DNA of 64,000 bases, taken from assembly GCF_900113225.1 (NCBI RefSeq), contig NZ_FOZE01000001.1:2356001-2420000 (forward strand), read 5' to 3'. This document shows positions 5,752-11,203 of the stretch, piece after piece (the first letter of the stretch is position 1; the number at the start of each line of letters is the position of its first letter). This stretch comes from Mitsuaria sp. PDC51 (GTDB lineage Bacteria; Pseudomonadota; Gammaproteobacteria; Burkholderiales; Burkholderiaceae_C). Under the pieces are notes generated by a model. It was not told the DNA's origin and did not search any database. It saw only the letters and a program-made list of their open reading frames with translations. The position numbers were made by a program, and so were the translations under genes.

Positions 5752-6069
5752 ATGCCGGACCTCAATCCCGAACCGCTCCGCCTCGCGGCACCGCCCGTGT
5801 CGTCGCGCGGCGGCCAGGCCGTCTGGGCCCGGTCGGTGCTGCGACTGCAGCGCAGCGTGGGCAACCGCGAGGTGGTGAGGATGCTGGGGCTGTCGCCGGC
5901 CCTGCCGGTGGCGCCCGCGCCCGATGCGCCGGCGCAGGAAGCACCGTTGGCCTTGGTGCCGGCGCCGGCGGCCGCGCCCTGGCGGCGTTGCCTGCAGCTC
6001 GCGTGGCGACGGCTGCGCGGCCTGCCGCCGCCGGACGAGACCGTCGTCCTGATCGAGGGGCGTCGATGA
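5752..6069 (+). CDS. Small protein with eCIS-type LQRxxGN motif
   Basis: 105 residues; ATG at 5752 preceded by GAGGAG at a good distance. Residues about 31-45 read LQRSVGNREVVRML. This closely resembles the LQRxxGNxxVxRLL motif found near the N-terminus of many eCIS-associated DUF4157 proteins. The rest is Pro/Ala-rich (about 50-75) and then basic with Trp and Arg (about 80-90). There is no DUF4157 core, so it looks like a detached N-terminal targeting module or a tiny cargo protein. Its stop overlaps the start of the activase gene (ATGA), tying it to that enzyme rather than only to the effector gene. The motif match is by eye; a profile search would settle it. Confidence 0.75.
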   Translation: MPDLNPEPLRLAAPPVSSRGGQAVWARSVLRLQRSVGNREVVRMLGLSPALPVAPAPDAPAQEAPLALVPAPAAAPWRRCLQLAWRRLRGLPPPDETVVLIEGRR

Positions 6070-9000
6070 CACGGCCCGAGGCCCGTTCCGCCATGCGGCC
6101 CGGCGCGCGGATCCTGGGCATCGACATCGGTTCCACCACCGTCAAGACCGTGGTCGTCGACGCGGCCAGCGGCGGGATCCTCTGGTCCGACTACCGCCGC
6201 CACGAGACGCGGCAGGCCGACGCGCTGGACGCGCAGCTGGCCGCGATCGAGGCCCGCTTCGGCGAGCTGGACGCCGACACGACGCGCGCCTTCGTCACCG
6301 GCTCCGGCGGGCCGCCGCTGGCGACGCTGCTCGGCGCGAAGTTCGTGCAGGAGGTCAACGCGGTCACGCTCGCCGTCGAGGCGCTGCATCCGGACGTCGG
6401 CAGCGTGATCGAGCTCGGCGGCCAGGACGCCAAGATCATCATCTACAAGCCGGCGCCGCCGGGCGCCTCGAACGCGGACCGGCGCGTGATCGCGTCGATG
6501 AACGACAAGTGCGCCTCCGGCACCGGCGCGACGATCGACAAGTGCGTGCTCAAGGCCGCGCTCGCGCCCGAGGCGCTGGGCGCGCTCGCCTGGGAACCGG
6601 CCAGGCTGCACCCGGTCGCGGCCAAGTGCGGCGTCTTCGCCGAGACCGACATCGTCGGCCTGCTCAAGGCCGGCATCCCGTCGGCCGAGGTCATGTGCTC
6701 GCTGGCCGACGCGATCGTGGCGCAGAACCTCACGGTGCTGACCCGCGGCCACACGCTGCAGCCGCGCGTGCTGCTGCTGGGCGGTCCCAACACCTACCTG
6801 CCGTTCCTGCAGGCCTGCTGGCGCCAGCGCATCGCCGAGCTGTGGGCCTCGCGCGGGACCGCGTTGCCGGCGGGCGCCCCGATCGAGGACCTCGTCGTCG
6901 TGCCCGGGAACGCCGCGCTGTACGCGGCCTACGGCGCCGCGGTGTACGGGATGCAGGAGGCGCCGGACATCGGCCGCTACGCCGGCGCAGGGGCGCTGCG
7001 CGCCTCGATCGCGCGTGGCCGCGGCGCGCGCGTGCTGCCGGCGCAAGGACCCGGGCTGGTGGCCAGCGACGAAGAGCGCGACGCCTTCATCAAGCGCTTC
7101 CGCCAGGCGCCGTTCGTGCCGGCGGTCTTCTCGCCGGGCCAGCGGGTGCGCGCGTTCCTCGGCATCGACGGCGGGTCGACCTCGTCCAAGGCGGTGCTGG
7201 TCGACGAGGGCGGCGAGGTCCTGTTCAAGGACTACCAGCTCTCGCGCGGTAATCCGCTCGCCGACGTGCAGGAGATCCTGCGCCGCGTGCGCGGCTTCGT
7301 GGCCGGGCAGGGCGCGGCGCTGGAGGTGCTGGGCGCCGGCGCGACCGGATACGCGGCGGACCTGCTGGAGGAGACGCTCGAGGTCGACGCCAACATCGTC
7401 GAGACGGTGGCGCACATGATGTCGGCGCGGCAGGCCTTCGACGATGTCGACGTGGTCTGCGACGTCGGCGGCCAGGACATCAAGGTGCTGTTCATGGCCG
7501 GCGGCGAGATCCGCAACTTCCGCCTGTCCAACCAGTGCTCGGCCGGCAACGGCATGCTGCTGCAGGCGATGGCGAGCCAGTTCGGCGTCGCGCTCTCCGA
7601 CTACGCGGCGCTGGCCTTCCGCGCGCGGATGAGCCCGCGCTTCAACTACGGCTGTGCCGTGTTCCTCGACACCGACCGCGTCACCTTCCAGAAGGAGGGC
7701 TACGGCAAGGAGGAACTGATGGCCGGCCTCGCGCTGGTGCTGCCGAAGAACATCTGGCAGTACGTCGTGCAGCTGCCGCGACTGGCGGAGCTTGGCCGCG
7801 TCTTCGTGCTGCAGGGCGGGACACAGCACAACCTGGCCGCGGTGAAGGCGCAGCACGACTACCTCGTCGAGCGCGTGCCCGGCGCGATCGTGCGCGTGCA
7901 TCCGCACTGCGGCGAGGCCGGCGCCATCGGCGCGGCGCTCGAGGCGCGACGCATCGTCGCGCGGCGCGGCCACAGCCGCTTCGTCGGCGTGGACGCGGCG
8001 ATCGGCCTGGCCTGGACGTCCCGCAACGACGAGGGCACCGTCTGCCACTTTTGCGCCAACGCCTGCCGTCGCACCTTCATCGACGCGGCGACCCCGCAGG
8101 GCCTCAACAGCCGCTACATCGCCGGTTTCTCCTGCGAGCACGGGACCGTCGAGTCCAAGGACGCGCTCAAGGCGCTGGTGTCGCACCGCAAGTCGCTGAA
8201 GGCGCAGTTCCCCAACCTGGTCGACTACGAGGCTGGCCTGGCCTTCAAGGCGGGGGCCGCGCCGCGGCCGCTGCCTGAGGCGGGCTCGCCCGTCGATCCG
8301 GGGCGGCGCTCGCGCGGCTGGGCAACGGCGGCGCTGCTGCCCTGGCGCGCCCGCGCGGCGCGCAGCTTCGAGCGCTCGGACGGCGCGTCGCGGCGGGCCG
8401 GCTTGCGCATCGGCATGCCGCGGGTGCTGAACATGTACTCGACCGCGCCGCTGTGGCGCGCCTACTTCGAGACGCTGGGCGTGCCCCCGCGCCAGATCGT
8501 GTTCTCCGACGTCACCAGCGAGGAACTGTGGGAGGCCGGCAGCCGCTACGGGTCGATCGATCCGTGCTTCCCGTCGAAGGTGGTGCAGGCGCACATCCAC
8601 GACCTGCTGAAGGTGAAGCACCGGGAGCGGCCGCTGGACTTCCTGTTCTTCCCCTGTCTGACGCATGTACCGAGCTTCGTGCGCGGTCTGCCCGACACGA
8701 CGGCCTGCCCGATCGTGGCCGGCGTGCCCAAGGTGATGCGCGCGGCCTTCACGCAGGAGGTCGACCATTTCGCGCGCGAGGGCGTGGTCTATGTCGACCC
8801 GGCGATCTCGCTGTGCGAGCCCCACTTCATGAAGCAGCAGATGTTCGAGGCCTGGGGCGAGCGCCTGGGCGTGACGCGGGACGAGAGCGACTTCGCCGTC
8901 GACCAGGGCTGGGCGGCGCTGCGCGCCTTCGACAGCGAGATGCAGCGCCGCGGCATGCAGCTGCTGGCGCAGCTCGAGGACGAAGGACGGGTCGGCATCC

Positions 9001-9722: not shown

Positions 9723-11203
9723 GATTGACGGACGAGGGCGACCGCCCGGTGATCTGGCTGCGCGACGAGCTGGCGCGGGCCGCCGAGATCGAACGCGAGC
9801 TCGAGGCCTTCGAGCGCGAGGAACGGGCGCGGCTGGGGCTGACGGAGGTGCCGGTGGCGCAGTGGCGCGATCCGGCGCCGCGGCCCTTCACGCGCGACGA
9901 GCGCGCCGGCACGACGCTGCTGTGCGGCGGACTGACGCAGGCGCAGGACCTGCTGATCCAGGGCGCGCTGCAGGGCATCGGCTACCGGGTGGAGGTGCTG
10001 GGCACGCCGGACGACGAGGCCTTGCGCGTCGGGCGCGAGTTCGGCAACCGTGGCCAGTGCAATCCCACCTACTTCACCGTCGGCAATCTCGTCCATCACC
10101 TGCAGCGGCTGCGCGACGAGCAAGACCTGAGCCCGCGCGAGATCATCGCGCGGCATGTCTTCGTCACCGCCGGGGCCTGCGGGCCGTGCCGCTTCGGGAC
10201 CTACGCGACCGAGTACCGCAAGGCGCTGCGCGATGCCGGCTTCGAGGGCTTCCGCGTGCTGCTGTTCCAGCAGCAGGGCGGTCTGCGACAGGCCTGCGGC
10301 GATGGCGACGGGCTGGTGCTGGATCGACGCTTCTTCTTCGCGCTGCTGCGGGCGGTGGTGGCCGGCGACGTGCTCAACGCGATGGGCTACCGGCTGCGGC
10401 CGTATGAACGCGATCCGGGCGCGACGCAGGCGGCGCTGGCCCGCTGCAAGGCGGTGCTGCACAACGCGCTGGCGGTGCGCGGCAGCGTCCTGGCGGCGCT
10501 GTGGCGATGCCGGCGGCTGCTGGGCGCGGTCGAGCTGGACCGCGCGCGGGTTAAGCCCAAGGTGTCGGTGATCGGCGAGTTCTGGGCGATGACCACCGAA
10601 GGCGACGGCAACTACCGGTTGCAGGCCTTCCTCGAGTCCGAGGGCGCCGAGGTACTGGTGCAGCCGGTCACCGCCTGGCTGCTCTACAACCTCTGGCAGA
10701 TGCGCTGGGACACGCGGCGGCGGATGGCGCTCCCGCGGCACGACGGCGGTCGCCACGGCCTGGCCGGCAGGTCGCCCTGGCGGCGGCTGGCGGCGGCGCG
10801 CGCCGCCGAGGCCGGCCTGCGCGGCTGCTATGCGCTGTATGCGGCGGTACTCGGCTTGCCGGCGCGCCGGCTGTGCAACCTCGACGAGATCGCGACGCTG
10901 TCACACCCGTTCTACGACAACCACCTGCGCGGCGGCGAGGGGCACATGGAGGTCGGCAAGCTGATCCAGAGCGTCACCGCGCGCAAGGCCCACATGGTGG
11001 TGAGCGTCAAGCCCTTCGGCTGCATGCCGTCGTCCGGCGTGTCCGACGGCGTGCAGGCGCTGGTGACCGAGAAGTACCCGCAGGCGATCTTCTGCAGCAT
11101 CGAGACCACCGGCGACGGCGCGGCCAATGCCCACAGCCGGGTGCTGCGCGACCTATTCAAGGCCAAGCGGCTGGCGGCCGCAGAACGGGCGGCCGGCACC
11201 TGA
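9719..11203 (+). CDS. 2-hydroxyacyl-CoA dehydratase-like subunit (COG3581-like)
   Basis: 494 residues, ATG at 9719 overlapping the activase stop (ATGA). It resembles the last segment of the very long single-chain activase/dehydratase proteins found in anaerobes, here split off as its own gene. Candidate iron-sulfur ligands are C114 (GNRGQCNPT), C154 and C157 (GACGPCRFG) and C435 (KPFGCMPSS). There is no signal peptide or membrane segment, so it is cytoplasmic. Together with the upstream gene it should form an ATP-driven, probably oxygen-sensitive metalloenzyme. The CoA substrate is not shown by the sequence. It is the last gene of the accessory cluster. Confidence 0.8.
   Translation: MRLTDEGDRPVIWLRDELARAAEIERELEAFEREERARLGLTEVPVAQWRDPAPRPFTRDERAGTTLLCGGLTQAQDLLIQGALQGIGYRVEVLGTPDDEALRVGREFGNRGQCNPTYFTVGNLVHHLQRLRDEQDLSPREIIARHVFVTAGACGPCRFGTYATEYRKALRDAGFEGFRVLLFQQQGGLRQACGDGDGLVLDRRFFFALLRAVVAGDVLNAMGYRLRPYERDPGATQAALARCKAVLHNALAVRGSVLAALWRCRRLLGAVELDRARVKPKVSVIGEFWAMTTEGDGNYRLQAFLESEGAEVLVQPVTAWLLYNLWQMRWDTRRRMALPRHDGGRHGLAGRSPWRRLAAARAAEAGLRGCYALYAAVLGLPARRLCNLDEIATLSHPFYDNHLRGGEGHMEVGKLIQSVTARKAHMVVSVKPFGCMPSSGVSDGVQALVTEKYPQAIFCSIETTGDGAANAHSRVLRDLFKAKRLAAAERAAGT

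Follow-up and report, generated by a model that had tools for sequence, protein, structure and literature searches.

A PlsA/Ger-like two-gene reductase homologue at the 3' end of an extracellular contractile injection system locus in Mitsuaria sp. PDC51

The subject of this work is a pair of genes in a 64,000-nucleotide stretch of the genome of Mitsuaria sp. PDC51 (positions 2356001–2420000 of contig C6 of our genome G000; hereafter the window, from whose first letter coordinates are counted). The two products, a large and a small subunit encoded on the plus strand at 6066..9722 and 9719..11203, are probably a two-gene homologue of the lipid reductases of the PlsA–PlsR or Ger type, as their domain order, their cysteines and their profile matches to single-chain proteins suggest. 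The enzyme belongs to a known family; what is unusual is its location beside an extracellular contractile injection system (eCIS), in the company of a relative of prolipoprotein diacylglyceryl transferase (LGT) and of a tiny LQR-motif protein.

The enzyme pair and its single-chain homologues

The large subunit of 1218 amino acids (aa) contains two stretches assigned by Pfam to PF01869 (BadF/BcrA-type ATPase) and the DUF2229 domain, and is laid out as Act1, Act2, a four-cysteine insert and Red1. The best PF01869 stretch, residues 365–627 (7158..7946), corresponds to Act2 with C491 and C530; the insert with C660/C663/C667/C690 (8043..8135) is followed by the Red1 core at residues 781–1011 (8406..9098), where PF09989 (DUF2229) matches with an E value of 3.5e-48. 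The small subunit (494 aa) is PlsR/Red2-like, or HgdB-like. ATGA overlaps join the large-subunit gene both to the small-subunit gene behind it and to the gene of the 105-aa LQR protein in front of it (5752..6069, plus strand), and the latter overlap is present also in a congener, G286. The initial annotation of 5752–11203 had described these three genes, with a double activase, a partner and translational coupling; all of them are present, and the enzyme class is the one that had been claimed.

The cysteines named in that annotation (C149/C188, C491/C530 and C660/C663/C667/C690), as well as C834, C881 and C1071, are C in all 89 aligned large subunits, those of the window and of G286 included. 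The partner gene was found at 82 of the 89 loci, and of the seven without it all but L120 are situated at contig ends; in the partner, C114, C154 and C157 are invariant (79/79) and C435 occurs in 78 of 79 sequences, with one gap. The activase domains have the BadF/BcrA ATPase and the pair of cluster cysteines of an HgdC-type activase, and they match TIGR00241, the solved activators 1hux and 4eht and the benzoyl-coenzyme A (CoA) reductase subunits MbdP/MbdQ.

The small subunit gave no Pfam or NCBIfam match at E 0.001 and none of relevance at E 10, the component D models included. Nothing meaningful was found among solved structures, where the best hit was thioredoxin (E 0.78), and E. coli YjiM, tried as a possible relative, gave no significant match in an hhalign profile comparison in which it was represented by a single sequence. 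The label as dehydratase-like is therefore less firmly supported than the rest of the initial description, since it depends on the similarity of this protein to the C-terminal region of single-chain homologues.

In Listeria, Collinsella, Haliovirga and Acetoanaerobium the two subunit profiles align one behind the other with a single uninterrupted chain, in the order Act1-Act2-Red1-Red2, and the same collinear match, although weaker, was obtained with the fused protein of G221. For the small-subunit profile against the C-terminal parts of the Haliovirga, Acetoanaerobium, Collinsella and Listeria chains the E values range from 1.3e-45 to 8.9e-43. All 11 cysteines of the large subunit are kept in the five single chains (four of PlsA type and that of G221). 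The small-subunit cysteines are kept completely (4/4) in Haliovirga and in part (3/4) in Listeria, Collinsella, Acetoanaerobium and G221, C114, C157 and C435 being common to the single-chain PlsA-type proteins. Each of the three single chains scanned with Pfam contains, as does the window protein, two PF01869 stretches and DUF2229.

Act1, Act2, Red1 and Red2 are the named domains of the plasmalogen synthase PlsA, and E. coli expressing plsA or plsA-plsR is described as forming plasmalogens (PMC12838417); conserved PlsA motifs go back to Jackson et al. 2021, as cited in PMC13274423. Single-chain PlsA occurs in Enterococcus, Lactococcus and Bifidobacterium. A review describes plsA/plsR orthologues in Listeria, plasmalogens being reported in L. 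monocytogenes and E. faecalis (PMC9702350). Judging by its length, domains and homology, the Listeria chain used here would be the orthologue of that review. The Ger enzymes, or glycerol ester reductases (Thermotoga maritima, Desulfatibacillum alkenivorans), are PlsA-like and yield alkyl ethers, which two activation domains are said to accompany (PMC13274423, PMC11150832, PMC11868695). PMC11868695 lists Ger homologues from Myxococcota, Planctomycetota and Nitrospirota, phyla that are also among the relatives found here. The window protein shares with them, as far as descriptions go, the two PF01869 activation domains, but this feature does not discriminate between PlsA and Ger, since the Listeria chain also has two. 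PlsAR homologues have further been proposed, without proof, to account for ether lipids in Solibacter usitatus, which was grown under as much as 21% oxygen (PMC10087280); for Thermotoga the proposal is a modified PlsA (PMC8788747).

With the PlsA–PlsR plasmalogen synthases (CPE1194/CPE1195 in Clostridium perfringens, single chains elsewhere) the window pair has in common the domain order, the cysteines, the two-gene operon form and, in many of its relatives, a TetR-type neighbour; it departs from them in its host lineage, its LGT-like and LQR neighbours and its eCIS locus. A TetR/AcrR gene is described directly upstream of the Enterococcus gene (PMC9702350). Among our loci, whose neighbouring genes were called with a simple script, a TetR-type gene stands by the pair in 25 of 88, within 330 bp of the large-subunit frame in 21 and with confirmation by Pfam in three, and one also adjoins the Collinsella single-chain gene; all 25 come from one broad Myxococcota-rich set and, being related, are not 25 independent cases. 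TRAP transporter genes (TatT, DctP, DctQM) were seen beside the pair in L055 (15454–19498; Nitrospira) and in L030 (5398–9199; the window's class), and with only these two loci the transporter was dropped as a general partner.

Several points weigh against the assignment to the PlsA–PlsR/Ger family. The large subunit is only 29–31% and the small subunit 21–23% identical to the four single-chain proteins of PlsA type, so the substrate could differ. The C. perfringens PlsA/PlsR and the proven Ger were compared by description only, not by sequence, and PlsA and Ger are stated not to be separable by sequence (PMC13274423). PlsA-type enzymes are described as sensitive to oxygen (PMC12838417), which is hard to reconcile with an aerobic host. 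The genes flanking the window pair showed no TetR-type gene, the downstream one not having been scanned with Pfam. Finally, the large-subunit tree is a quick LG+G4 reconstruction, and the letter make-up of the window sequence was flagged as unusual.

The proposed reaction

Known activases bind a single [4Fe-4S] cluster between their two monomers, each of which contributes two cysteines, and every dehydratase subunit binds a cluster through three cysteines (PMC11574389). The window pair can be read as a fused version of this scheme, with its tandem activase and with three cysteines each in Red1 and Red2. We propose that Act1 and Act2 would make up a covalently joined activase 'dimer' that shares one [4Fe-4S] cluster (C149, C188, C491, C530), from which ATP hydrolysis would drive low-potential electrons to the [4Fe-4S] clusters of Red1, with C834, C881 and C1071 as candidate ligands, and of the separate Red2 subunit, with C114, C157 and C435. 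At Red1/Red2 an acyl ester of a membrane glycerophospholipid may then be reduced to a vinyl or alkyl ether. Judging by their conservation, C660/C663/C667/C690 would probably form a further Fe-S or zinc site. The cluster assignment, the catalysis, the lipid substrate and the product are in this scheme predictions drawn from sequence.

Alternatively, the pair might reduce or dehydrate a small metabolite bound to CoA or to a carrier, in the manner of 2-hydroxyacyl-CoA dehydratases or benzoyl-CoA reductases. With these enzymes and their HgdC-type activase it shares the activase family, as seen in the matches to TIGR00241, 1hux, 4eht and MbdP/MbdQ, the Cys pair and the three-Cys reductase sites, and two of the eight small-subunit homologues in a plasmid collection are annotated as 2-hydroxyacyl-CoA dehydratase. 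It differs from them by its tandem fused activase, by DUF2229 and by the orphan Red2, for which the family models gave no relevant match and YjiM no significant one, and we found no evidence of a CoA substrate. The arrangement of four domains is that of PlsA/Ger, and a CoA- or carrier-bound substrate appears to us quite unlikely.

The view that enzymes of this kind are known mostly from strict anaerobes, expressed in the initial annotation, does not hold for the subfamily collected here: the best 80 relatives include Paenibacillus, Brevibacillus and Sorangium, which are aerobic or facultative.

Origin of the cassette and its accessory genes

In the large-subunit tree the sequences of the window and G286 group with those of Verrucomicrobiota (SH-aLRT 100), joined next by Planctomycetota (96), apart from the other copies of the window's class. 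Horizontal acquisition of the cassette, from a donor related to Verrucomicrobiota/Planctomycetota, is most likely, the direction of transfer being one that we infer. Among 387 Verrucomicrobiota genomes, 99 have some match to the large subunit and only one, G705, has a match of high identity over the full length. A plasmid or viral home was rejected: no relative was found in viral contigs, and the eight plasmid-collection matches covering at least 80% of the large subunit are only 26.7–30.6% identical. Two records of that collection, NZ_CP030101.1 and NZ_CP154629.1, are chromosome-sized (2.9 and 2.6 Mb). A copy in a metagenome-assembled genome (MAG) labelled Bifidobacterium breve (L104) groups with Myxococcota and uncultured proteobacterial sequences, and this bin is probably mislabelled or contaminated.

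Upstream of the LQR gene, at 4575..5723 on the plus strand, lies a non-canonical LGT-family paralogue of 382 aa with an extra C-terminal part. It scores 58.6 bits against PF01790 (cut-off 24.9) but falls below the NCBIfam equivalog cut-offs, and a canonical lgt is present elsewhere in the host genome (C6:1313885). In E. coli Lgt the HGGx box and the GR-x-GN signature are important; in the alignment the window protein has GR-x-GC for GR-x-GN and no HGGx box. Within the window's tree clade an LGT-family gene is found near the pair also in L050 (Verrucomicrobiales; upstream, 8483–9265) and in L052 (Planctomycetota; directly downstream, 9874–10644), none is near the pair in L072, and L062 comes without a flank. 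The copies of the window, L050 and L052 all miss the HGGx histidine and have C for N in GR-x-GN, that of L050 having also A for the first G, and the three genomes hold other LGT genes. A canonical lgt in convergent orientation lies near the pair at three loci from the window's class, of which two belong to the same genus. The LGT-like gene is probably part of the acquired cassette, and transfer of the lipid module as a unit seems plausible.

The LQR protein carries the motif LQRSVGNREVVRML at 5845–5886 and a cationic amphipathic stretch towards its C-terminus, where the segment PWRRCLQLAWRRLRGL has a net charge of +5 and a hydrophobic moment of 0.66, a value reached by about 5% of shuffles. 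The protein of G286 is 92% identical, and this segment is the same in both; the plasmid collection gave no match up to E 1. That the protein binds membranes and serves as an adaptor is speculation on our part. Its motif had been described as of eCIS type, a label that finds weak support, in that similar motifs precede the eCIS_core (DUF4157) domain in two proteins: LQKTLGNQAVQRML stands 33 residues before it in a Brevibacillus formosus protein (L207 of G831, a genome with the pair elsewhere, at L082), and a looser form 20 residues before it in the congener G279. The strict motif was found in 1 of 37 eCIS_core ORFs (open reading frames) and in 0 of 883 others, and the looser one in 2 of 37 versus 13 of 883, with no clear excess. 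As a general mark of eCIS_core proteins it is weak, and it was not retained in this role. The 116 kb surrounding the locus contain no copy of the motif outside this 105-aa ORF.

Compared with G286, the ratio of non-synonymous to synonymous substitution rates (dN/dS) is 0.25 for the LGT-like gene, 0.27 for the LQR gene (based on 22 changes, 13 synonymous and 9 other), 0.18 for the large and 0.14 for the small subunit. These values support the view that the four genes of 4575–11203 are real, working genes under purifying selection.

The injection system locus and the meaning of the association

A complete eCIS locus lies directly 5' of the pair. In the 28 kb upstream, on the same strand and by gene calls made with a simple script, we identified the AAA ATPase, Pvc16, sheath, tube, spike, PAAR, gp25, a Baseplate_J protein, a Tail_P2_I/NHL protein and DUF4157 genes, so that the eCIS neighbourhood proposed in the initial annotation turned out to be more complete than had been stated. 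Of the four strong eCIS_core matches, three lie 5' of the window start and one inside. The 3' part of one such gene occupies 1..1309 (plus strand). The gene starts 1324 bases 5' of the window and matches PF13699, over its whole length, with an E value of 2.3e-29; its counterpart in G286 is 97.6% identical at the protein level. It is followed by the fourth eCIS_core gene (1249..3990, plus strand; 913 aa), with PF13699 and a C-terminal LysM match, and by an ORF for a 190-aa protein of unassigned family (3990..4562, plus strand), which has no Pfam or NCBIfam match and no counterpart in the fetched G286 stretch (L048). Between the last eCIS_core gene and the pair thus stand the 190-aa, LGT-family and LQR genes, and the pair forms the 3' end of the same-strand run. 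By Pfam the pair itself has no DUF4157/eCIS_core domain, which is common in, but not required of, eCIS effectors.

A consensus scan of 3800–11700 showed no terminator-like site on the plus strand (2.3 expected from shuffles, for both strands) and no sigma-70-type promoter. A single transcript from the eCIS into the pair would be consistent with this gene order. As the cassette closes the eCIS operon of this lineage, the pair is probably co-expressed with the eCIS. Toxins associated with eCIS are reported to tend towards the operon 3' end (PMC8213781); here, as in other eCIS with accessory genes at this place, the complete core and the DUF4157 genes lie 5' on the same strand, but the terminal genes encode a reductase of ether-lipid type. 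In the literature searched we found no paper joining a contractile injection system with an activase and a dehydratase, or extracellular contractile injection with prolipoprotein diacylglyceryl transferase; eCIS together with plasmalogen or ether lipid was not a search term.

Among the genomes examined the association, although real, is limited to a single lineage. The block 4602–11232 is 95.2% identical to G286 in DNA; past 11232, which leaves 29 bases after the last stop (11204..11232) as its 3' border, no further match was found in the stretches compared. On the left the match breaks off at 2345 and resumes at 4602. Between these points (5571–7295 in L048) the C-terminal part of the fourth eCIS_core protein and the 190-aa gene are replaced, the two sides being 87% and 95% identical in DNA, which makes 2345–4602 a likely effector-swap site. 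Of 16 congeners two have the large subunit together with the LGT-like protein, adjoining eCIS_core genes in both. Strong eCIS_core matches are present in seven of the 16, and in the five without the pair both proteins are absent genome-wide; none of the four genes (4575–11203) was found in the 20–52 kb fetched from them, and their eCIS proteins are 26–58% identical. In 14 of the 16 congeneric genomes, G279 and G286 being the exceptions, eCIS_core also gives a weaker match, with E of about 1e-9 to 1e-13, and in several this match is the only one.

Beyond the genus, a class-wide sample of 274 genomes contained 24 (the window's own included) with a match to the large subunit. Identity and coverage left eight true orthologues besides that of the window, one of them a contig-end fragment; seven of these eight genomes have no eCIS_core match, and the eighth, G077, has one on another contig. 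The comparison of homologous neighbourhoods, which the initial annotation itself had suggested as a check, speaks against a general link: among the best 80 of at least 504 confirmed relatives, mostly from other phyla, no eCIS_core domain was found in the fetched flanks (0/80; up to 10 kb, both flanks full in 37 loci), and 41 of the 50 genomes checked as a whole have no such domain at all, the other nine having one somewhere. The profile used for the flanks was built from eight domains of this genus and still found the domain in another family (L038). On these counts a general association between eCIS and the pair is rejected. Three Myxococcales MAGs (L096, L098 and L099; G845, G847 and G848) contain 25, 42 and 37 eCIS_core matches, far beyond the apparent need of one system.

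Under these conditions we lean slightly towards regarding the cassette as a passenger, which in one lineage came to lie beside the eCIS without any functional connection with it. The pair is widespread without eCIS and is rare in the family of the host, where a small-subunit match of any kind was found in 7 of 399 genomes, the window's own included. The tight spacing, the ATGA coupling to the LQR-motif protein and the retention of the block with different right-hand flanks in two species are less easily explained in this way.

The alternative is a dedicated eCIS lipid module made up of the pair, the LGT-like protein and the LQR protein as a membrane adaptor, in which ether lipids formed during eCIS production would protect or shape the producer membrane or dock the particle. 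The common strand and tight spacing from the eCIS to the pair, the lack of a terminator-like site on the plus strand, the near-identity of the block in G286 beside an exchanged presumed effector part, the purifying selection on all four genes and the cationic amphipathic segment all speak for such a module. Its restriction to a single lineage, the five congeners in which strong eCIS_core genes are accompanied by neither the large subunit nor the LGT-like protein, and the 80 other loci with no eCIS_core domain in their flanks make it doubtful, although a dedicated eCIS role for the pair is possible. The more specific picture of an eCIS operon with its own reductase, non-canonical LGT and LQR adaptor with a membrane-binding helix, whose ether lipids, formed during particle production, would shield the producer's membrane from its own effectors or form a docking or release platform for the particle, is in our estimate rather unlikely. 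The earlier idea that the pair loads or chemically modifies eCIS cargo agrees with the operon 3' end as the reported place of eCIS-associated toxins (PMC8213781), but it is very improbable: homologues occur in genomes without eCIS, those relatives that have been studied act on membrane lipids, and we saw no feature specific to cargo. Neither cargo modification nor the making of a small molecule for the system found support, and the sequence points to ester-to-ether reduction of membrane lipids.

The probable assignment of the pair would place a hitherto unexplained 'anaerobe-type' enzyme pair among the reductases that turn ester into ether lipids, which as a family are central to the question of bacterial ether lipids. 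Such a pair is rare in the bacterial family of the host, and its two-gene form is found also in organisms such as Paenibacillus and Sorangium. If the tie to the eCIS is functional, contractile injection systems would be linked with the remodelling of membrane lipids.

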